The position numbers and the translations under genes were made by a program. Shown here piece after piece: positions 3,861 through 56,707 of a stretch of DNA of 64,000 nucleotides. Location of the stretch: contig JAQMWT010000005.1 in assembly GCA_029834535.1 (NCBI GenBank), forward strand, positions 558,001 through 622,000, in the 5' to 3' direction. The notes below the pieces were generated by a model. It was not told where the DNA came from, ran no database searches, and was given only the letters and a program-made list of their open reading frames with translations. The stretch's first letter is position 1. Every line of letters begins with the position of its first letter. The DNA is from Chrysophaeum taylorii (Eukaryota; Sar; Pelagophyceae; Pelagomonadales; Pelagomonadaceae).

Positions 3861-6800
3861 TCAAAATCGAAGGTTGCTGCCGACTCGTTTTGTTCTGACA
3901 TTTCTCTTTAGCCTGGATGGGGCGCTGGGTGGTCTGGGTACACGGTCAGTTTTTCTTTGTGTGGCCCTGAGGAGAGCGTCATCATCTTCGTTGTCAAAGT
4001 CAATGTTGGTCTGGAACTTGGCTCGCAGTTGTTTCTCTACTTTGCTTTGTTCCACACGGTGCAGATTCTCGAGGTTGGTCACTGCGGCCTCTTGGCGGCG
4101 GTACATGTTGTTCAGGCGAGAAGCCTGGCGGCGCTGGAATAGTTTGACGGCAGTCTCCTGCTGGAGCACGAGATTCTGTAGACGTGTGCCTGTGGCCATC
4201 TTCTTGACGGATTCGCAGAGAGTTTTCGTGTTTTCGAGGTCTATGTCACGGGCCTTGCGCTCGGCGTCGTGGGCCTCGGCGTAGCGCCTCTTTCGCCGTA
4301 GGTGCTTGGCCATCTTGAGTTGGTGGACCATCTCGGGCGGCTTGGTTGTGGTGCGGATGTGGTGCCGCTGATTCTTCGCAAGGTAGGGCTTGGTGTCTTT
4401 GTTTTCATCGTCCTCGCCGTCCGACTTGGCCCCAGTCTTGCTCATGACCTCAGCAATGTAGTTGCTAGTCTGCACCTGGTGCTCTTCACGGATGCGTTCG
4501 AGACCCTCATCAATTTGCTTGTCAAGGGCCATACGTTCTTGCTTGTGCTTAGCCTCGAGATCGCGGAATCTAATTTGGTGCTGATGTTGCAGCCGCCTCT
4601 TCGCGTTCTCCAGGACCCGTGTCAAGCGCTCGTCGCGTTCCTTACGGTACTCAGCCTGGAGCTGGGCAATGGGCGCGTCCAGCTCAAGAGCCTTTTCCAT
4701 GAGACCGTCACGTCGGAGGGCGGTGCGCTCTTGGACAAGGCTCTTGAGGTGTAGGTTAGTTGAGACTCCACCGACCGACCTAGCATCGACCTGCGACCGC
4801 CCTTCGTCGTCAGCGCCCAGGTGCTCACCCTTGTTAATGGCGTCCTCGTGGTGTTGGCGTTGTTCCTGGACATAATCGCTCAGCTTTCGGTTAATCGTGT
4901 GTATCAAGTTCCGCGCAGCGGCCGATGAGAGAGGCGTGCGACTTGTCGTGCTTCCCAAGTCACTCGCGCCATCTCCCAACGCATTATTTCTGGGGCTCCC
5001 CGACCAGCTCGGCATACCGCTAACCTGAGATGTGACAGACCGGCTCGCGGGCGCTGTGGACGGTCGCTTGGGCAGGCTGTTGAGCCCCTCGACCTTCTTC
5101 AGTTTCAAATTTTCGTCATCGACCCCAGGAAGTTCGTCAGCGACTCTTTTTTTGAACGTATTCAACTCTCGGATAGCCGCGTTGTCTCCCTCTTTCCAAG
5201 CTTGTCCGGTCATCGTCAAAGGCGCGTGTTGTAGGAAACGTGTGAGCGCACTCAGTGACCTGGCGTACCTCTCATCGCCAGTCTTGTCGATAGAGAAGAC
5301 GAGACGGAATCGTGGTTCCTCATTGCCCGAGAAAATAGGTTGTATGAAGATGATACTGCGACTATGCGCAATTTCGAATGTCTTGGGCGCTGTCTTGGGC
5401 GTGGCCTCAAGCGCGGTCCTAACCTCCTCGACAACCACCTCGCCAAACGCGCTAGCAAGTGAGGCAAGCCACGCGGATGTCTCCGGAGAGTACATCCTCC
5501 CCACATCGCGGGTGTCAACAACTGCGCCGTCGAGGCTCTGGAGGCGCTCCTTCTCTCGTAAGGATGAGCTGTCGTCGTCCCCGATGAGGTTCGAGATCAT
5601 CTCAAGCCAGAAGCTCGACTTGTCCGCGCAACCAGCTTTGACTGCGAGCACCGGCACGCCGGTGCTCGGATGTTGTGCCGCTGTATACAGGTCCGGATGC
5701 ACCTCAGGCACTGGTGGTAGCTTGAAGGCCTCGCCGTCTGCCGGGTTCTCGTCCATGTATGCGTGTGGGTCCTTTAGATATGCAAGCGACGAGTCCGGAT
5801 GCCCGAGTAGTTTCCGAATCATTTCCTGTCCGTCGGTGGAGCTCAGAAAATCGGGTAGGACATGAACGCTGAGGACACGCTCGCAGCGAGCCTGCGTGTG
5901 CGGCAGCTGCTGAAGGATTGGATCCCAGTTGAAGTCGAGCTTGCTCAATGCACCGACTGGGATCTCGGTCTTGGCAAACAAGAACAACGGGTTCTCCTGC
6001 CAGACAGCGTGGTACTTGAGCGCTAGTTGTTTTTGATCTGCCAACACTGGCTCCGTAAGAATCTCCTCAATGATGTCCCAGCACCGGACGAGTGCCTTGG
6101 CAACGCGAGAACGCTTCGCCGCAAACGCCGTGAACGCGTCGTGGCAGAGACCCTTTTGTCGGAAGAGCGCCGCAGTTGTCTGCTCGGGCACGTCAAGCCA
6201 TTTTGCCGACGTCATCTTGACGATCGCCTGTAGGCACTCGGACTCGATTTCAAGCCGCAATTTCGGGTCGCAAGACGCCTGTGGCATGTCGTGCCACCCT
6301 ACACCGCCGCTGCCGCCGCCACCCTGATTGCCCTCTGGAGCTTGTTTCGTCTGTTGTTGTTGTTGTTGTTGTTTCTGCCGCTGTTGTTCTTCGATCGTCG
6401 GAAGCTCAGTGATGCTGCTACTCTTTGCCTCGAGGGCGTCGTCAGCGGGCCTATCGCCCACTCTACAAGTGTGGACATCCTTGATCGTTGTCGTTGACAG
6501 CAGCAGGGTAGCGCGGTCGGTCTCTGAAGTGATATCGACGGTCTCGGGTAGTAAGGCCACGAACCGTTCCAAGTTAGCGAGATTGGCTTCGACGCTTTCG
6601 CCATTCTCACTCATGTTTACTTGCGCGCCGATTTGATAGAGGTATTCGCCACCAGCAGTAGAGAATACGGGATGCAACACGATCAAGTTCTGGAAGACCT
6701 TACCTCGAGCGTAATTGTACATTTTTACCATGACGCCCTGTCGCTCGCGAATCGAATTTGCAATCTCCTCCATTAGGTACCGTTGGGTCGTTTGGGAGAC

Positions 6801-8568
6801 GTCGCCCTGGAGGAATCGGCAATTTTTTCCGAGAACGTCGTTCTCGGATGAGACACCTGCAAGTCGAAGGAAGCGAGAATTCGCGAAGACAATAGGGAGG
6901 CCAGGGGTCATCACGTCGACCACGATGCACGAGACTGGCGCATCGCGTGCCGCATTCGTTATGCCATGTAAGAAGCCCTTCGCCAGTCGTTCTTCCTGCG
7001 AGCACGCGGGATTTCCCTGGTCTAGAGTGTCAGACGGCGCGCACAGCAAGTTACTGATGGCGGGCTCCTCCTTCTCATCCTTCTCCACCTGTCGGATTAT
7101 GGCAACAAGCTCCACGCTCTTGGGATGGAGCATGACCTTGGGGAGGAATGTCTTGGCGAGCACGTCAACGTGCGACTCCCATTCTGGTGAGCCCTTTTTC
7201 TGCGCTACCGCTTGCTCAAACGCAAACAGTGTGGCCGCCGACCCCAAGTCCACAGAAGCCGCGAGCTCGCGCAGATGGTGTCGGAGCTTGACGATGCTCA
7301 GAAGCCACGTGATTGCGGCGACCGGGCTTGTCAACCACTTGAGTCGAGTTGCGAAGAACGTACATCTCCAAATTACGGCACGTTCGTCCTCTTCGTCGTA
7401 GCTGACGCGAAGGCTTGTGACGGGTGGCACCGGTCGATCGCGGATGCGCAGGCGTTTGAAAGGGACGGCCTTCGGCATCAAGGCAAGCAAGTCGTCCAGC
7501 ATCCGGAGCTTGCGCTGCTGGGACAGCACGCATGTTTCGTTGACTTCGAACTGGACAGCCACGACGTAGGTGTATTTCCCGTCGATGTCCAGCACCGGTC
7601 GCATGCTGAGCAAGTTGAGAAATATCTGACCATTCTTGCGGTAGTTGTAGATGGCCACCTGGCAATCCGCCGCGCTGGCTAGCGTTCGTTGAATGACCCG
7701 CAACGACTCGAGCTGTGTCGCGGGGCCTTGAAGAAAGCGGCAGTTGCGGCCCTCGGCCTGCGAGGCATCTGTCGACACACGATCCGTTCGAATACGAAAA
7801 ATCTAACTACGCAGATAGACAAACCTCCTGGCGCGCGTACCCAGTGATCGTACAAAAGGTCGAGTTGACGCATATCATCGGCCCGCCGGGGATGCTCATG
7901 TCGGAGAGCACCACCGCTGCTTTGAGTTTGTCGACGACTGAACGAAACATCAGGAGCCACTCCTCGGGGCCCTGATGACGGATCTCCCGGATCGACTCGA
8001 GAGCTCGGACCATCGGCAGCTCTTGCTCGGAATCGCCCATTTCCTCGAGGAGGTCGTCAAAGTTCAAGGTCGTGACAAGTCTGGGCAGCAAGCTCAATCC
8101 CAGCATGCTACCCCTTTGCGAGGCCGCCTCCAGCACTTCCTCTAGAACTTCGTAGCTTCGGAGTTGATCTGTATTTTTTCGCGCGCGTTCCCACAACGCG
8201 GCCGTCATCGCTGTCCTGTCGTGCTGGCCGATCCCGTCGAACTTGCGACTGTTTCCTCCCATGAAGTGCGTCTTATACAGCATGGCGGCCAACCGGAGAG
8301 CGCGCTCCTGGTGGTACGTCTTGCTCAGCACGCGCAGCTCCCGTGCCCGCTCGACGAACTTGAGCGCCTCGGCTTCTTCCTGGCTCAGGAGCGGCAGTAC
8401 GTCGCGCCTTATCACCCGCGACTTGAGGGCCACTAGCAGCAACTCTGCCAGATCGTTGGTCAGGGGCGCCGATAGAATTCCACCCCCTTGGTGCTGGACA
8501 CCCAGGCGCCCATGAGTTCGGATCCCAGTGAGCCGACCGTGCGTCTCGCTCATCCTACAACTCGACAT
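3861..8568 (-). CDS. RGS-LOV1-LOV2-RGS photoreceptor-like protein
   Basis: Two exons (8568-7825 and 7757-3861) joined across a 67-bp GT-AG intron give about 1546 residues. The intron splits LOV1; correct splicing restores TGYARQE directly before GRNCRFLQG. LOV1 carries the flavin-adduct cysteine at about residue 254, LOV2 (GKNCRFLQG) at about 561; both keep the NY(R/A)-x-G-x-x-F-x-NL signature and the late-strand Gln, so both should bind flavin. An RGS-like helical bundle precedes LOV1 (about residues 70-150). A second RGS-like segment lies between the LOVs (about 395-475). The clearest RGS-like region follows LOV2 (about 780-890, ending VLPDFLSSTDG). A Gln run near 710-717 is followed later by a long charged coiled coil to the C-terminus. 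RGS-LOV proteins are known in fungi and algae; this triple-RGS double-LOV order is unusual. Expected role: blue-light control of G-protein signalling (inference). Confidence 0.82.
7758..7824 (-). other. 67-bp intron inside LOV1
   Basis: Donor GTTTGT follows the codon for Glu248; acceptor TCGCAG precedes GCC. A nearer acceptor (GACAG at 7769) would give the wrong phase, so 7758 is chosen because it alone restores the LOV consensus spacing between TGY and GRNC. Confidence 0.8.
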
Positions 8569-33741: not shown

Positions 33742-33984
33742 ATGACGATACAGTCGGCACGAAAAAAGTGGTGGTGGTAGACGTATAAGAGTCTTCTCCG
33801 AGTCTTCTTCTCGAGTCTCGACAGACGCCCGTCGTGTTTTGGGTTTCCCGTCGTCGTTGCAACAGTAATAATAATAAGAAAGTGTGGCAATCATCATCAT
33901 CATCATATTATTGAAGTGGAGACTTCTTTCAAGAAATGTATCCGACAAAATGGCGCATTCCCTTCTTCTTCACAAAGCGAAAGA

Positions 33985-36949
33985 ATGTTCCACGCTCCTT
34001 CTTCTAAATGCAACGTCGCATTGAAACACTCGGTCGGACGCATGAGGCAGAAGAAGCTGCGGGAGTGCTCGGAAGCTTTGGAGCGCGCGATCGCTTTGTC
34101 GTTCGTGAGGCTCGCACGCGTCATCAGCCGACATCCCGCGCGGACGATCGGGGTGTGCCTGACTGTCGTCGCGATATGTTCGACCGGGTGGTCGCAGTTC
34201 AGCGACGAGGACGACCCGCAGAAGCTGTTCGTGCCCCAGGATACGCGTGCGATCCGGGACCGGGACTACGTCGAAGATCGGTTCGACGACCAGAACGCGG
34301 CTTCCCAGGTGTTTTTGAATCGGGAAGGTGACGGGTCCAACATCCTAACGCGGGAAGCTCTTCTCGAGGTGATGGATCTGCACGAGACGGTCGCGCGCAT
34401 CGACAGCGAAGAGTCGACCCGCGGGTACGACGAGCGGAGTTGCGCGTTTGCGTACTGGAGTAGCGAGCCCGAATGTCAGAAGGAGTCGATCCTCGCGTTC
34501 TGGGACTACAACCGGACGTCGCTCGCGGGCGACGAAGACGTTCTGGCGACGATTAACGCCAAAGTCGACACCGAAAACGACTGCTGCTCGCCGACAACGC
34601 GGACGCTCGACATGGACCGTTACGCGGCCAAAATTCGCGTCGACGCGGCCGGCCAGATCACGAGCGCGGGCGGGCTGCGTATCGCCTACTACCTGCGGCA
34701 GAAGCTGCACCGTAAGACGCGTCAAGACCCGCACGCGTTCCGGCTCGAACGGAAGTTCGACGCCAAGACGCGGCGCCTGAATTTGCCGTCGTTCGAGCGG
34801 GCACTTCCTCTGACCTCGGCGGGCGTCGCCGACAACGTCCAAGCTGCGCTCGACTACGATCGTCTGTTCGTGACGCTCGCTTTCGTGACGATCACGACGT
34901 ACTCGTTTCTCGCGCTCGCGAGTCGTCGTTCGTCGTCGCGCGGCTTGCTCGGTCTCCTGGCGACCGCGACGGTCGGGTTCGCCGTGGCCGCCGCGTTCGG
35001 GTTGTGCTTCGCCTTTGGCGTCCAGTTCACGCCCATAACCAGCGTCTCGGCCTTCTTGGTGCTCGGGATCGGTCTCGACGACGCGTTCGTCGTAGTCGGC
35101 GCCGACGATCTGGCGTCGTTCGCTCGCGACGCCGCGATGATCGCGCGCGGCGTCACGAGCCTCGAGGCCGCTACCACAAAGAGGGTGTGCATGGCGCTCG
35201 CGGTCGCCGGGCCCTCGATCTTCACGACCTCGATAACCGACGCGGCCGCTTTTTTCGCGGGATCGTATACCCGCATCCCCGCCATTTCGAGCTTCTGCTT
35301 GTTCTGCGCGACGTGCGTCATCGTCGACTTCGCGCTCCAGATCACACTCTTCGTGGCTTTCTTTGTCTACGACACGCGCCGCAAGCTTCGACGCCACGCG
35401 CTTCAGCTCGCCGGAAAGGTCGGCTCTCCCGACGACCGCGAACCCTCCGCCGCTCGCGCGTCCGTCAAGCCCGACGACGACGACGACGACGACGACGACA
35501 AAACCGCCTCGAAAGAAGAGGACGAAACCGAGAATGATGATGCCGCGGCGCCGACGACCAGCGAGGACCTGATGGCGCTCGTGTCCCGGCGAAAGCTCGA
35601 GGTCGAAGCGAGTCGCCCCAAGACGTGGTTTGGACGCGTCTACGCGGCGCGGGTTCTCTCGCCCGCCGGCGCGGCGCTCGTTTTCGTCGGCACGACCGTG
35701 CTGATCATTTTCGGGGCGATCGGGTGCGCGAACTTCGACATGCACTTCGAGTACGAGTGGCTCTACGGGCGGGGCCTCGAGAACAATTACGTCCCAAAGG
35801 CGACCGACTTCCAGAAGAAGTGGTTCAAAAATTTTGGCGCCGGCGAAGACAGTAGCACGAATTTTGGAATTTACACCAAGCGGGGCGACTACTTTGTCCA
35901 CGGCGATGAAATGCGAGCCCTCATCGACAACACCGAAGCGCTCTCCTTCGTCGTGAAAGGGAGCCTCGCGTCCAACTGGTACGACGCGCACCAAGCGTGG
36001 GCCGTCAACGTGACGACGAGCCGAGAGTACGTCGCGTCCGTCAAGGCCTTTCTCGAGACCGACCAAGGCCGTGCTTACGCGGGAAAGATTGTCTTTGCGG
36101 ACGACGACGACGGAACCATCGCCGCGACCGAGATCGACTCGCGGTGGAAAGACCTCGGAACGTCAAAAGCGATCACGAGCATGCGAGACATGCGTCGCGC
36201 CGTCAAGCGCGCCGCCCCCTCGTTCGATACGATCGCCTTCTCGCCTACTTTTGTCTGGCTCGAAGGCCTCCGAATCATCACGCGCGAAACCGTCCGAAGC
36301 TTGGCGATCGCTTGCGCCGTCGTCGTCGCCGTCCTCGTCGCCTTGCTCGGCGACGTCGCCGTCGCTGCCCTCGTGAGTGCCTACGTCTGTACCATCTGTC
36401 TCTGCACTATTTCCAGCATATACTGGTACGGAGACCACATTAACTTCCTGAGCGCGTTCTTCATCATCATCGCCGCCGGCCTCGCGACCGACGCGCCCGC
36501 TCACGTCGCTCACGCGTACATCCACGCGCCCCCATCCCTCGTTACGGGAAAGGAGCGCGCCGCCTACGCCCTCGACGAGCTCGGCCTCTCGGTCTTTCGA
36601 GGCGTTACCTCGACCTTGGTCGGCATCGTCGTCATGGCGGGCACAAAGACCTACGTTTTCCAGACCTTTTTCTGGTGCGCGCGTCTCAAAGGATTTGTCG
36701 GTTTGTCACTTTTTCGTCCTCCTCCTCAGGTACTTGACGACGATTATGGTCTTGGGTCTCTGGTTCGGCCTCGCCGTCGCGCCGGTCTCTCTGGCTGTGC
36801 TCGGTCCACTCCTTGTCTCGCCCCCCGCCGCACCCCCCTCGGCGGCCGCCGCCGCCCCGGTCGCTCCAGACGTCTTTGAGACCGAGATGCGATCTGCCTC
36901 CGACGACGACGGCGCCGCCGCTCTGGCGGGCCGAGCCGACAACATCTAA
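33985..36949 (+). CDS. Patched/NPC1-like RND-superfamily membrane protein
   Basis: Two exons (33985-36674, 36730-36949) with a 55-bp GT-AG intron; 969 residues. Architecture: TM1 (RTIGVCLTVVAICSTG), a large luminal/extracellular domain with paired Cys, a five-helix sterol-sensing-like block (SAFLVLGIGLDDAFVVVGAD, with the RND GxGxDD motif), an acidic cytosolic loop containing nine consecutive Asp, then a second TM-luminal-TM repeat. In the second repeat the equivalent motif is weakened to AAGLATDAPAH. The intron is needed to restore FFWYLTTIMVLGLWFGLA, the last TM. Family members (Patched, NPC1, Dispatched, PTCHD) move sterols or lipidated ligands using an ion gradient. Start is the first ATG; a second at 34042 is equally possible. 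Confidence 0.85.
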
Positions 36950-39388: not shown

Positions 39389-39668
39389 GTGTGGTGTACT
39401 TTATTTGTATAGAATGAATATAAAGAAGGCCCCACCATCATAAAATCCTCTCAAAATAAACGGAAACTTCTGCTATCCGGTAGATCCAGGATTACTGAAA
39501 TACTAGCTAGCAGCAGAGAGGCGACGACGACTCGCGAAAAATACGAAACAATCATCAAAACATGTCGCTGCAGCAGAGGGCGGAGGGACGGATGATTACC
39601 GAGTAGAGAGAAGAAGAAGAAGAAGAAGAATAGTGTCGTCGCAGTAAGAAGACCTGAGCGTGTGGAGG
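39340..39668. other. Divergent promoter region with microsatellites
   Basis: Separates the glycosyltransferase start from the dynamin start. Includes a (CCG)n tract at about 39359-39385 and an (AAG)n tract at about 39608-39630. Confidence 0.5.
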
Positions 39669-41990
39669 ATGGTTTCCGAGTCTTCGTTGGACAAGTCGTA
39701 CACCAAGAACGTCCGGCCATGGCTGGAACTGGCCGAGGACCTACGAGCGCTGTCGTTGGACCACACGTTGGCCGTGCCCCAGATCTGCGTGATGGGTGAT
39801 CAATCATCGGGCAAGTCGAGCGTCCTCGAGGCGCTGTCGGGCGTGCCATTTCCGCGCGGGTCGGGACTGGTGACGCGGTGTCCGTGCCGAATGGTCATGC
39901 GACGAGCAGCCCCCGACGCCCCGTGGGCGGCGGTAGCATCTACGACGACATCCGGCAGTTCCTCGATCACCGCCGAGAGTCCCGAGGAGCTGACGTCGAT
40001 CATCTCGAGGCTCACCGAATCGCTGACGCGAAACACGCACGGCTTCTCGACGGAGTCGATCATCGTAAGACTGACCTCTCCATTGTCGCCCGACCTCACC
40101 GTCGTCGACTTGCCGGGCATCGTTCGGACGGCGACCGTTGGCCAGAACGTCGCCGTGATCGAAGAAGTAAACTCGTTGATCGACGACTACCTCAAACAAG
40201 AACGAACCATCATCCTAGCGGTCATCCCCGCCAACCAGGACATCGCGACGGTCGACATTTTGGAAAGGGCGCAACACGTCGACCCCGACGGCGAGCGTAC
40301 GCTCGGAGTCCTGACCAAACCTGACCTCATCGGCCCCGGCAACGAGGAGGAGGTCGTGGCCGTGCTGTCGAACGTCCGCAAGCCGCTCAAGCTCGGTTAC
40401 GTCATGGTCAAGAACAGATCGCAGGCGCAAATTAAGCAGGGAACGTCGCACGAGGCGGCTCGCGCCGAGGAATTGCGATTCTTCGACTCGCATCCCGTAT
40501 TCTCCCGTCTCGACAAACGTCTCCTCGGAATTTCAAACTTGACGACCTCGCTCACCAAGCTGTTGGTCCGGCGCATTCAAGAAGAACTCGCTCCGATGAA
40601 GCGTCAGGTGGAAATGCTCCTCTCCAAGGTGCGGACAGACGTCCGAGCCGTGTCGTCCTACGGCACCGCCTCGACGCCGAGCGAAAGGCAAAAACTCCTC
40701 GTCACGCTCACGCAAGAGTTCGTGCGTCACTTGAATGATTGCGTCCGGGGCGAGTATCGCGATCGTCTCATCGTTTGCAACCCGAACCTCCGCCTCTACA
40801 CGCGAGCCATCGTCGTCTTCCAGGAACTTCAGTCGCGCATCATCGCGTCGGCGCCAAACTTCCGCGCCCCCAACTTCATCGACGACCTCGCGCGCCAGAT
40901 GGAAGCTCTCAGAGGCCGCGAACTCCCGGGCTTTATGAGCGCTCAGAGTTTCTATATGTTCGTCCAGGAGTACATCGACGCCTGGCTTCCGCCGGCGCGC
41001 ATGGCGGCTGCGCAAATGCGATCTCTCGCGAGCGAGGTTGTCAAGGAACTCTTCGAGAATATCGCCGTCTCGTACCCCTCCCTCCGCGAGGCCTTTCAAA
41101 TCGTCACGGCGACCATTCTCGAAACCACCGAGGACGAATCCATCCAGCTCCTCGAAGGCCTCATCTCGCGAGAAAAGGACCCCTTCACCATCAACGAGTT
41201 TTTGCAGGCGCACATCAACAAGCTTCGCTACGACCGCTTCGAGGCCGCCGTCGAGTCCGCCTTCAACGTCGTCGCGACCAACGGCACCGGCACGGCCTCC
41301 AACAATTCCTCGTGGTCGGCCGCGAAAGAGCACGTCGCCTCCTCGCTCCGGACGTGGTATCGCGACGCTCACGGCGTTAGCTCCTCGGCCAATGCCGAGG
41401 ATATGTCGGCCATCCTCGAGGCCTATTGGACGCTCGCCTCCAAGCGCTTCGTCGACAACGCGTGCATGTGCCTCGATGACCGTATTCTAGGCACCCTCTG
41501 CAGCAAGCTCCAAGAAAAATGCTACCAGTTTGTCCACGACGACGACCGACTCGAGAATTTTTTTACCGAAGATGCAACCATCGTTGCCCGCCGCCACGAG
41601 CTTGAGCAGACTCGCGACCGTCTCGTTAAGGCTAACGCTGCCATGGCCAACATTCAAGCCTCCCGTAAGCCCAAGACTACCCTGCTGAAACAATCAGCCG
41701 TCGCGCCCGCCGCCGCGCCGCACGTTATTCGCGTTTCCATTCAGGTTGGCCCGCAGGGCCTTGGACTGCAGCTGGCCGACGAACACAACGTGGTCGTCAC
41801 GCGCGGTTTCAGACCGGGGAGCGTCGCCCAACAGTCCGGTGTCCAGTTAGGCGATGTCTTGCTCGAGATCAACGGCGAACGACCGAGCTCCTTCCAGGAC
41901 ACGATCGCACGACTTAAAGCCGTAGGCCATGGCGTGGTCGTGTTGACGCTCGAGCGTCGAGGAGAAGCGACTGCCTCCCCTTCCAATTAA
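39669..41990 (+). CDS. Dynamin/Mx-type GTPase with C-terminal PDZ domain
   Basis: 773 residues, one exon, ATG at 39669 (a GTG three codons earlier is rejected). GTPase motifs: P-loop GDQSSGKSS (about 43-51), G3 DLPG (about 146) and G4 TKPD (about 214). A dynamin middle/stalk (FNPLRLYT-like CNPNLRLYTRAIVVFQEL) and a GED-like helix (CSKLQEKCYQF to ANAAMANIQ) follow, with no PH or Pro-rich domain, so the body is Mx-like. After a short Lys/Ala linker, residues about 686-763 form a PDZ domain: VGPQGLGLQL carboxylate-binding loop, GSVAQQSGVQLGDVLLEING and a final VVVLTLERR strand. Dynamins polymerise on membranes and use GTP to bend or cut them; the PDZ could target the protein to a receptor tail (inference). 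The fusion is unusual. No break is seen across the join. Confidence 0.88.
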   Translation: MVSESSLDKSYTKNVRPWLELAEDLRALSLDHTLAVPQICVMGDQSSGKSSVLEALSGVPFPRGSGLVTRCPCRMVMRRAAPDAPWAAVASTTTSGSSSITAESPEELTSIISRLTESLTRNTHGFSTESIIVRLTSPLSPDLTVVDLPGIVRTATVGQNVAVIEEVNSLIDDYLKQERTIILAVIPANQDIATVDILERAQHVDPDGERTLGVLTKPDLIGPGNEEEVVAVLSNVRKPLKLGYVMVKNRSQAQIKQGTSHEAARAEELRFFDSHPVFSRLDKRLLGISNLTTSLTKLLVRRIQEELAPMKRQVEMLLSKVRTDVRAVSSYGTASTPSERQKLLVTLTQEFVRHLNDCVRGEYRDRLIVCNPNLRLYTRAIVVFQELQSRIIASAPNFRAPNFIDDLARQMEALRGRELPGFMSAQSFYMFVQEYIDAWLPPARMAAAQMRSLASEVVKELFENIAVSYPSLREAFQIVTATILETTEDESIQLLEGLISREKDPFTINEFLQAHINKLRYDRFEAAVESAFNVVATNGTGTASNNSSWSAAKEHVASSLRTWYRDAHGVSSSANAEDMSAILEAYWTLASKRFVDNACMCLDDRILGTLCSKLQEKCYQFVHDDDRLENFFTEDATIVARRHELEQTRDRLVKANAAMANIQASRKPKTTLLKQSAVAPAAAPHVIRVSIQVGPQGLGLQLADEHNVVVTRGFRPGSVAQQSGVQLGDVLLEINGERPSSFQDTIARLKAVGHGVVVLTLERRGEATASPSN

Positions 41991-54001: not shown

Positions 54002-56707
54002 ATGGGGGAGGCCTCGTCTCCTTGTGGTACTCCACCGCTGGAGTACCAGACGCTGATCTTGGAGAGCACGACGCCGCTGCAGACGACGGTGAAGCGTCCA
54101 GTCGCGGTGAGACCACCGGAAGAGGCCTCCGATGGTCTGCGGGAGAGTAGCTCGCCCGCAAGGCCGAGCCACAATTTTGCGAATCGCCAGGATAGGGAGT
54201 CGGAGCGCGCCTTGGAGGAGATCGAGACGTCGCTGAACCAGACGCAGTTGCCTCGGGACGACTACCGGCGGGGCGACGAGGTCGGGGGCGCGACGACGTG
54301 GAGCTCGCTGAATTACGAGGAGTTCATAAACGACGCGTCTATCGCGGCGAGCAGGCGGTGGACGCCCAAGCGGCGGCGCGTCTGCTTCGGGTACTCGGGG
54401 CGGACGCTCGCGCGGTGGGTGGTGACGTGTGCGATCGGAGTGACGATGGGTGGCGTGGCCATCGGTTTGTCGCGGGCGTCGGACGCGTTGCTCTCTTGCC
54501 GGAACGGGTTGGTTAGTCTCGACGGATCGGCGACGTCGTTCGCGGTGTTCGTGGCATGGGGTGGTGCGATCGGCGCGGCGTCGTCGGGACTCGTCGCGTT
54601 TGTCGCGCCGGGGGCCTCGGGATCCGGGATTCCGCAGGTCAAGGCGTACCTGAACGGCGTGCGTCTCGAAGGGTGTCTCTCGGTGCGCGTTTTTTGCGTC
54701 AAACTCTTAGGGACCGTACTCTCGGTCGGGTCGGGGGCCTCGCTCGGGCCCGAGGGGCCGCTCGTCCACCTCGGCGCGATTTCGGGGTCCTTTGTGACGG
54801 GCGGCCTCGACCCGACCCGTTTCTGCGTCGCGCTGCGGCGGCTGATGCCGCGCGCGGCCTCGCGCAACGTCCTCGGCTTGTTCCCGTCCGCCGCGGGCGT
54901 CGGACGCGACGAGGACGACGAGAGGCGCGGCACGCCGCCGCCCTTTTTCCGGAGCGACCTCGACCGGCGAGATTTTTTGAGCATCGGCGCGGCCTGCGGA
55001 TTTTCGGCGGCCTTCGGCGCCCCGATCGGCGGCGTCCTCTTCTCGCTCGAGGAGGCGTCGAGCTTCTGGTCGAACGAGCTCCTGTGGCGGTCGCTCGTCG
55101 GCGCCGTACTCTCGACCTTCACCGCGCTCGCCCTCGAGCACAACATCGTCGGCCTCAGCGAAGTGTCCCGCTACGGCCTGATTTCCCTCCGCGGCAAGGC
55201 CGACAACCAGGAGGTCTCGCTCGCGCTCTTGCCGCTCGCCGCGATCTTCGGCGTCTTCGGAGGCGTCCTCGGCGCGGGCTTCAACGCTTCTTTCTACCGC
55301 ATCATGCGGTGTCGGCAGCGCCTCGCCAAGGCGGTCGAGCGCGCGTGGGAGGATAAAGAAGACGAGGACCCGCGCGATCCCATACTCCGGGCCCGCTCGG
55401 CCAAGGCGGTCGCGCGCCTCGTCGACGCGACGCTCGGCGTCTGCCTGACGTCGTTCGCGTTTTACGCCGTCGCCAGAGCCAGTCGCTCGTGGGCCTGCGT
55501 GGACCGCGACGAGGACGACGACGGCTGGCTCCGGGACGACATCTTCACGATCCGCTTCAACTGCGCCGAGGGCAAAGTCCACGAACTCGCGTCTCTCTGG
55601 TTTGGAAGCCGTGAGCGCGCGATCAAAAAAATTCTCGAAGCCTCGGCCGGCGAGTTCAACGGCGCCGGCCTCGCGCTCTCGGGCGTCCTCACCTTTTGCA
55701 CCCTCGCGCTCTCCTTTGGCTCCTCGCTCCCGGGCGGCCTCTTCCTGCCCCTCATATTTTGCGGCGCCTCTTTGGGCGGCGCCGTCGCCAGGCTCGACTT
55801 CGTCGAGACGAGCCACCTCTCCATCACGCGCCGACACATGAGCCTCCTCGGGGCCGTCGCCCTCCTCGCCGGCGTCCAGCGCTCGACCGTCTCGCTCTGC
55901 GTCATCATGCTCGAGGGCACCGGCAACACGGCGCTCCTCATCCCGATCATCGTCGTCGTCTGCGTCGCCCGCTTCGTCGGAAACTCTCTCGGCGATGGAC
56001 TCTACGAGCTCTCGCTCGAGCTCCAGTCCGTCCCCTTCCTCGAGCGCCACGTCCACGCCGGCCTCGAAGGCATCACCGTCAAATCTTTCTGCCGGAACAA
56101 GCCTCCTCCTGTCTCCTTCCCGCTGCGCCCCGCGGCCGCCCGCGCGGCCGACATCTTGGCCGCCACCAAGCACGGCGCCTACCCCGTCGTCTTTCGACAA
56201 AACGCCGACGGCAGCATTTCCAAAGACGCCGATGCTGGTGGTGCTGTCAAGCTCGCCGGCCTGGTTCATCGCGAGCACGTCAAAGCCCTGTTGCGCGCGA
56301 GCCACCTCCACCTCGAAGGCGACCTCCCGCCGTCCCTCGCGACCCGCCTCGCTATGTCCGCGTTCGACCCCGGGACTCTGCGAGACGTTCGCCCCGGCCG
56401 CCTCCGAAGCCGAGACGAGGAGGGCAACGAGGTCTGCTATGATCGTTTGGCTTCGCGAGGCGACGACGACGGCAGCGACGACGACACGTTGCCGCACTAC
56501 TCTGAGGTCCACCTCCACCTCGAGCGCGTCATGGTCCGCTCCCCGCACCTCGTCTACGAAGACTGCCCCGTCTCTCGCGCCTACCGTCTCTTCGTCACCA
56601 TGGGGGCACGCCACCTCCTCGTCGTCAACCACGACGGCGACCTCACCGGTATCTTGACTCGACACGATATGTTCGAAATCAGCCAACTCGCCCCCCCCCC
56701 CCAGTGA
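54002..56707 (+). CDS. CLC-family chloride channel/proton antiporter with CBS domains
   Basis: 901 residues, one exon. Hydrophobic core of CLC type with selectivity motifs GSGIPQVKAYL (about residue 208) and GPEGPLVHLG (about 249), where the Glu is the gating glutamate. The later FGAPIGGVLFSLEEAS keeps the Glu that marks proton-coupled exchangers (ClC-ec1 E203 equivalent), so Cl-/H+ antiport is more likely than a pure channel. GSSLPGGLFLPLIFCGASLG and AGVQRSTVSLCVIMLEGTG are the third and fourth conserved blocks. Two CBS modules follow in the cytosolic C-terminus, the second ending LLVVNHDGDLTGILTRHDMF. The N-terminal 130 residues are Ser/Arg-rich and variable. Probably an intracellular or plasma-membrane transporter; location is unknown. 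The C run before the stop (56693-56701) encodes Pro. Confidence 0.93.
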   Translation: MGEASSPCGTPPLEYQTLILESTTPLQTTVKRPVAVRPPEEASDGLRESSSPARPSHNFANRQDRESERALEEIETSLNQTQLPRDDYRRGDEVGGATTWSSLNYEEFINDASIAASRRWTPKRRRVCFGYSGRTLARWVVTCAIGVTMGGVAIGLSRASDALLSCRNGLVSLDGSATSFAVFVAWGGAIGAASSGLVAFVAPGASGSGIPQVKAYLNGVRLEGCLSVRVFCVKLLGTVLSVGSGASLGPEGPLVHLGAISGSFVTGGLDPTRFCVALRRLMPRAASRNVLGLFPSAAGVGRDEDDERRGTPPPFFRSDLDRRDFLSIGAACGFSAAFGAPIGGVLFSLEEASSFWSNELLWRSLVGAVLSTFTALALEHNIVGLSEVSRYGLISLRGKADNQEVSLALLPLAAIFGVFGGVLGAGFNASFYRIMRCRQRLAKAVERAWEDKEDEDPRDPILRARSAKAVARLVDATLGVCLTSFAFYAVARASRSWACVDRDEDDDGWLRDDIFTIRFNCAEGKVHELASLWFGSRERAIKKILEASAGEFNGAGLALSGVLTFCTLALSFGSSLPGGLFLPLIFCGASLGGAVARLDFVETSHLSITRRHMSLLGAVALLAGVQRSTVSLCVIMLEGTGNTALLIPIIVVVCVARFVGNSLGDGLYELSLELQSVPFLERHVHAGLEGITVKSFCRNKPPPVSFPLRPAAARAADILAATKHGAYPVVFRQNADGSISKDADAGGAVKLAGLVHREHVKALLRASHLHLEGDLPPSLATRLAMSAFDPGTLRDVRPGRLRSRDEEGNEVCYDRLASRGDDDGSDDDTLPHYSEVHLHLERVMVRSPHLVYEDCPVSRAYRLFVTMGARHLLVVNHDGDLTGILTRHDMFEISQLAPPPQ

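Follow-up and report, generated by a model that had tools for sequence, protein, structure and literature searches.

What kind of protein carries two LOV photoreceptor domains and several RGS-like helical bundles in alternation along one chain, and what would light do to it? The question is raised by a gene near the start of a 64,000-nucleotide stretch of the Chrysophaeum taylorii (Pelagophyceae) genome (the window; assembly GCA_029834535.1, contig JAQMWT010000005.1, positions 558,001 to 622,000 of the forward strand), which a first-pass annotation had described as a possible multi-input light-controlled G-protein regulator, perhaps tied to a cytoskeletal or flagellar structure through a long coiled coil. 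The product is probably a blue-light receptor of the helmchrome-like kind, from a stramenopile that is photosynthetic. This is a known class, in which the number and alternation of the domains are unusual; the alternating LOV types and an eight-LOV relative in the same genome are the interesting parts.

The gene is on the minus strand at 3861-8568 and is organized in two exons (8568-7825 and 7757-3861) with a spliced product of 1546 residues, coordinates and length that had been annotated correctly. The reading frame is interrupted once, and excising a 67-base GT-AG intron (7824-7758) rejoins both exons. The splice listing holds three GT-AG choices with a product longer than 1000 residues, the other two being introns of 73 and 52 bases, also in frame. 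The 67-base intron is preferred because it is the only listed choice that keeps the residue spacing of LOV1 in the paralogues: it gives GYARQEAEGRNCRFLQG, spaced as in the intronless relatives (EYERDEAVGRNCRFLQG), whereas the 73- and 52-base introns keep the frame but lose that spacing. The two-exon model of the 1546-residue protein is in this sense a prediction by homology. An arrangement of the two LOVs as separate genes is ruled out, because the cysteine half of LOV1 and the whole of LOV2 share exon 2, and the description of one protein with two LOVs interleaved with RGS-type domains therefore stands. The domain order is RGSa, LOV1, a shortened RGS-like domain, LOV2 and another RGS-like domain, followed by what is doubtfully a PAS remnant and then by a coiled coil, where a and b denote two types of each domain in the family:

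7825..8568, minus strand: exon 1, residues 1-248; an ATG-started open frame, with LOV homology carrying on over the splice
8035..8472, minus strand: RGSa domain, about residues 33-178; paralogue RGSa profiles; the RGSa alignment matches RGS proteins in the PDB
7758..7824, minus strand: GT-AG intron of 67 bases; paralogue LOV spacing preserved in the product
3861..7757, minus strand: exon 2, residues 249-1546 and stop; open frame
7542..7920, minus strand: LOV1 (type a), about residues 217-320, containing the intron, with flavin Cys254 at 7740-7742; family LOV profile, tree, residue reading and PDB matches
7077..7364, minus strand: shortened RGSb-type domain, about residues 380-475, domain middle absent; RGSb profile, 18.7 bits, 0/500 shuffles as high
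6612..6932, minus strand: LOV2 (type b), about residues 524-630, with flavin Cys561 at 6819-6821; best PAS_9 stretch, tree and residue reading
5802..6218, minus strand: RGSb-type domain, about residues 762-900; RGSb profile, 59.9 bits, 0/500, and RGSa profile, 7.2 bits, 0/500
5202..5504, minus strand: doubtful PAS/LOV remnant that has no cysteine, at about residues 1000-1100; family LOV profile and a low-confidence model
4002..4796, minus strand: charged coiled-coil region, about residues 1236-1500; matches the C-termini of the relatives C524 and C594, without a PDB relative

Photoreceptor LOV domains are PAS cores with a GxNCRFLQ motif that holds the reactive cysteine, and with Asn, Asn and Gln residues that contact the flavin. 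Both LOVs of the window protein have this complete set, with GRNCRFLQG at Cys254 and GKNCRFLQG at Cys561 and with Cys, Arg, Gln, Asn, Asn and Gln at the six alignment positions, bearing out what had been annotated for the cysteines and the flavin site. Pfam finds two PAS_9 stretches in exon 2 (E 1.5e-17), which also matches solved LOV structures of phototropin, aureochrome and bacterial LOV kinases, and light sensing through the two LOVs is likely. The Pfam scan of both exons gives LOV domains only, with no kinase family and no bZIP, and identity with a phototropin or an aureochrome is thereby ruled out. Phototropin likewise has two LOVs with the full photoactive set, and the window LOVs match its LOV structures, but it ends in a Ser/Thr kinase. 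Aureochrome is also a stramenopile LOV receptor, and Pfam identifies three bZIP-LOV proteins of this type in the same genome, but its LOV is preceded by a bZIP. It is doubtful whether a third LOV, in the form of a PAS remnant, follows the last RGS-like domain: residues 990-1100 score 6.5 bits with the family LOV profile (1 of 500 shuffles as high), with likeness to the last LOV strands, a longer stretch scores 5.2 bits (again 1 of 500), and a low-confidence model of residues 745-1110 has three strands and a helix at about 1000-1100. The matching regions of two relatives give no LOV support (C493, 211 of 500 shuffles as high; C166, no score).

The window protein is not alone: used as a query against the genome, it leads to a family of at least six genes in which RGS and LOV domains alternate, namely the window gene and those here called C524, C594, C493, C166 and C484. 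The largest, C524 (544125-555893), is an uninterrupted frame of 3923 codons, or 3913 residues counted from the first Met. Its LOV and RGS-type domains number eight each, in the order RGSa-LOVa-RGSb-LOVb, four times over, then a coil; C594 (2172 codons) has the same unit twice, then a coil. The frames of C493 and C166 are 1570 and 1563 codons long, and C484 has 893 codons and further exons. A simple assembly copy is ruled out as the origin of the eight-LOV frame by the divergence of its halves, which share 79% DNA identity over 4285 columns and differ by 0.15 nonsynonymous (dN) and 0.80 synonymous (dS) substitutions per site over 1452 codons; on this codon comparison the halves are under purifying selection. 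One patch of C524 (about 547933-549043) hardly differs from its partner, with which it shares exact runs of 573, 221, 95 and 61 bases. This looks like gene conversion, although it may instead be an assembly fault limited to that patch. The phrase "eight LOV domains" was not met in the literature searched on multi-LOV proteins.

A tree of 20 LOVs of the family and the LOVs of five single-LOV proteins of the genome separates two types, with a midpoint root that serves as a drawing aid only and with two very long LOVb rows; a further LOV exon of C484 is outside the 20. The ten LOVb are on one side of a branch with support 98/95, and the LOVs of the five single-LOV proteins form a group of their own, on one side of another branch (100/99). 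Window LOV1 falls within LOVa, and LOV2 is on the LOVb side, closest to the dividing branch. The two types thus probably predate the split of the genes, since the tree separates them and the window LOVs fall one in each. Of the 20 aligned family LOVs, 18 retain the flavin cysteine, and 11 have Cys, Asn, Asn and Gln jointly, comprising nine of ten LOVa and two of ten LOVb. Among the LOVb, the second Asn is replaced by Cys in seven of ten and by Leu in one, and the Arg by Ser or Thr in six; the only LOVb that keep every residue read are LOV2 of the window protein and the fourth LOV in C594. The LOVa at residue 273 of C166 has a leucine instead of the flavin cysteine, and C166 is possibly a light-blind paralogue.

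The paralogues also provide the means of identifying the RGS-type domains, whose homology was tested with paralogue profiles because a Pfam scan of the window protein itself gives no RGS. Elsewhere in the genome PF00615 has 15 matches, all above cut-off, six of which are in LOV-bearing frames (four in C524 and two in C594); Pfam finds no RGS in C493 or C166, and C484 has a single match, below cut-off. Two frames of the family, C524 and C594, have RGS stretches that pass the Pfam cut-off; profile A was built solely from their six RGSa, and profile B from all paralogue RGSa with the window row left out. The RGSb profile was seeded with six domains, taken from C594, C484 and three of the four RGSb copies in C524, and 500 shuffles per segment served as controls. 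Profile A recognizes C484, C166 and C493 (84.4, 30.9 and 25.6 bits, each with 0/500 shuffles as high). Residues 1-200 of the window protein score 38.2 bits with profile A (best shuffle 4.4, 0/500 as high) and 44.4 with profile B (best shuffle 4.3, 0/500), against 4.3 with the RGSb profile (2/500). Residues 740-915 score 59.9 bits with the RGSb profile (best shuffle 6.9, 0/500), 7.2 with profile A (best shuffle 4.4, 0/500) and 2.6 with profile B (2/500). The inter-LOV residues 355-500 have no score with profile A and no RGSa match with profile B (-1.2 bits, 83/500), but 18.7 bits with the RGSb profile (best shuffle 5.0, 0/500), to which they align in two collinear pieces with the domain middle gone.

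Three RGS-like bundles had been annotated, and all three are recovered, each in its own way, through the paralogue profiles. The first is firmly placed as RGS-type via relatives that match PF00615, the third firmly as RGSb, and the second is supported as a shortened RGSb through the RGSb profile only. The RGSa alignment, window row included, matches the structures of RGS2, RGS16, RGS10, RGS4 and Axin (best E 8e-10). The second helical type, RGSb, has a conserved stretch near YCTTTEI, and its alignment finds no RGS among solved structures, the hits being two Cas9 sequences at E 0.86. Its kinship to RGS is supported by profile comparisons, namely the 7.2 bits on residues 740-915 and an hhalign comparison of RGSa with RGSb that is collinear over 124 columns (probability 89%, E 2.2e-6).

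The long coiled coil of the annotation is confirmed, with residues 1236-1500 homologous to the C-terminal coils of C524 and C594 in a genome search with the window protein. The C524 coil as genome query has just three hits at E up to 0.01, in C524, C594 and the window gene, and among solved structures there is no relative (best E 0.19); on these searches the coil is family-specific. A tie to the cytoskeleton can only be conjectured, since the coil has no structural relatives and is found in three family genes only. The coil region of C524, C594 and C493 includes a CxC...CxxH motif, possibly metal binding, that is absent from the window protein.

Aureochromes, 84 light-harvesting matches and a radial-spoke head (E 4.9e-58) are present in the genome, and this gene content suggests a stramenopile that is photosynthetic and has genes for flagella, although the radial-spoke gene would indicate flagellar genes only and not the location of this protein. 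Aureochromes are apparently confined to photosynthetic stramenopiles, according to an excerpt of PMC12558739. Helmchromes are RGS-LOV proteins of stramenopiles in the excerpted text of PMC10967245, which cites Fu et al. 2015, and an excerpt of PMC5795050 assigns one of them (CBJ26132.1), as a putative photosensor, to the posterior flagellum. The window protein has in common with helmchrome the combination of RGS and LOV in one chain, the stramenopile lineage and an expected blue-light input. A flagellar link, part of what had been annotated, is plausible because the RGS-LOV proteins of stramenopiles are these posterior-flagellum helmchromes; the cytoskeletal part has no solved-structure relative of the coil to lean on.

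In the helmchrome-like reading, light would enter through two flavin-binding LOVs, one of type a and one of type b, both types being old, with blue light forming a cysteinyl-flavin adduct in each. Each LOV is between RGS-type bundles, and the signal would most likely alter the contacts of the bundles with each other or with a partner. An oligomer would be joined through the C-terminal coil, and a flagellar site with phototactic steering would follow by analogy with helmchrome. We infer flavin binding, light response, oligomerization, flagellar place and phototaxis alike, and of these flagellar steering is plausible through the analogy. Several points weigh against this reading. The profile search proposed with the annotation returned PAS_9 twice but no PF00615 match in the three segments, or anywhere in the window protein, at E up to 10. 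Fold prediction, also proposed there, was of little help, the models made without an alignment having a mean predicted local distance difference test score (pLDDT) of 39 for exon 1 and 42 for residues 745-1110. The comparison with helmchrome covers domain content and lineage. An Old Yellow Enzyme-related flavoprotein, purified from the posterior cilium of a brown alga according to an excerpt of PMC2781859, competes as a candidate for the role of flagellar flavoprotein.

The photoreceptor for stramenopile phototaxis is, to our knowledge, not settled, and other roles have to be weighed. The annotated G-protein regulator would be a light-controlled GTPase accelerator, in which light on the LOVs exposes the RGS domains and so switches off G-alpha. 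G-alpha genes are present (13 matches, among them two full-length frames and a fragmented gene at C244), and RGSa is a true RGS homologue. In classical acceleration, however, E87, N88 and N128 of RGS4 contact G-alpha. RGS1 has E-N and N at these places, and RGS4 has E-N at the first two in the stretch shown, whereas the window RGSa has E, A and G and lacks the classical accelerator set. An equivalent of E87 is retained in two of nine distinct RGSa aligned (the window gene and the first copy of C594), and an Asn equivalent to N88 or N128 in 0 of 9. By contrast, C570, an RGS and EF-hand protein of the same genome, keeps E-N and N, with the second Asn beside an alignment gap. RGSb is diverged further and has no RGS structure match. 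Classical GTPase-activating (GAP) activity of the LOV-linked RGS domains is therefore doubtful, because both RGS4 Asn equivalents are absent from their RGSa, and G-protein control through GTPase acceleration is unlikely; this part of the annotated role is weakened, and we rate the accelerator as improbable overall. A docking or scaffold role fits the RGS domains better than GTPase acceleration. In the mechanism preferred here, faster GTP hydrolysis on G-alpha driven by RGS would be the weakest and least likely step, and the domains may bind G proteins.

GAP residues are not required if the protein is a light-dependent membrane binder like the fungal RGS-LOV protein BcLOV4, in which light exposes a basic lipid-binding helix, with RGS as a passenger. 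The domain pair is the same, with RGS beside LOV, but the fungal proteins are single RGS-LOV proteins, and the two LOVs, three RGS-type domains, long coil and alternating order of the window protein set it apart, leaving this role a rather slim prospect. Equally slim is a mostly structural flagellar or paraflagellar protein, with LOV flavin as a shading or antenna pigment and little signalling. The repeated LOV numbers of the paralogues would suit it, as would the green flavin-like fluorescence of phototactic heterokonts reported in an excerpt of PMC2781859, but a mere shade would not need the photoactive cysteine that is kept in 18 of 20 family LOVs. Somewhat less remote, and still on the unlikely side, is a modular photoreceptor array, in which copying of an ancestral RGSa-LOVa-RGSb-LOVb cassette raised the LOV number to a maximum of eight per chain. 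The full photoswitch would be LOVa, most LOVb would be retuned by loss of the second Asn, and RGS would be a non-GAP structural frame coupling adjacent LOVs in a filament-like protein at the flagellum that counts photons or senses the direction of light. With the helmchrome-like receptor as the preferred reading, the six RGS-LOV genes, with two to eight LOVs, offer a natural series on repeated LOVs and inactive-looking RGS domains, and the two-LOV and eight-LOV modules are offered for optogenetics.

The raphidophyte article PMC6685483 lists other LOV genes, and the term "rgs" is absent from the part consulted. In prokaryote genomes at least 593 stretches fit a pattern and 537 of them are relatives; in the 80 of these 537 that were retained, the match starts at query residue 127 or later and thus covers LOV, linker and at most an RGS tail. 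Because the LOV motif itself served as a pattern, alongside one other, this search is no fair test for RGS. In viral contigs 50 stretches fit a pattern and none was confirmed as a relative. Another LOV protein of the genome, at C122 (2168-3730 of its locus), has no bZIP; ankyrin-like repeats are apparent by eye before its LOV, and Pfam reports PAS families only. Further along the window, on the plus strand, are genes for a sterol-sensing/Patched-like protein (33916-36879), a dynamin whose N, middle and GED domains are followed by a fused C-terminal PDZ domain (39660-41990), and a CBS-containing CLC chloride channel (54002-56707).

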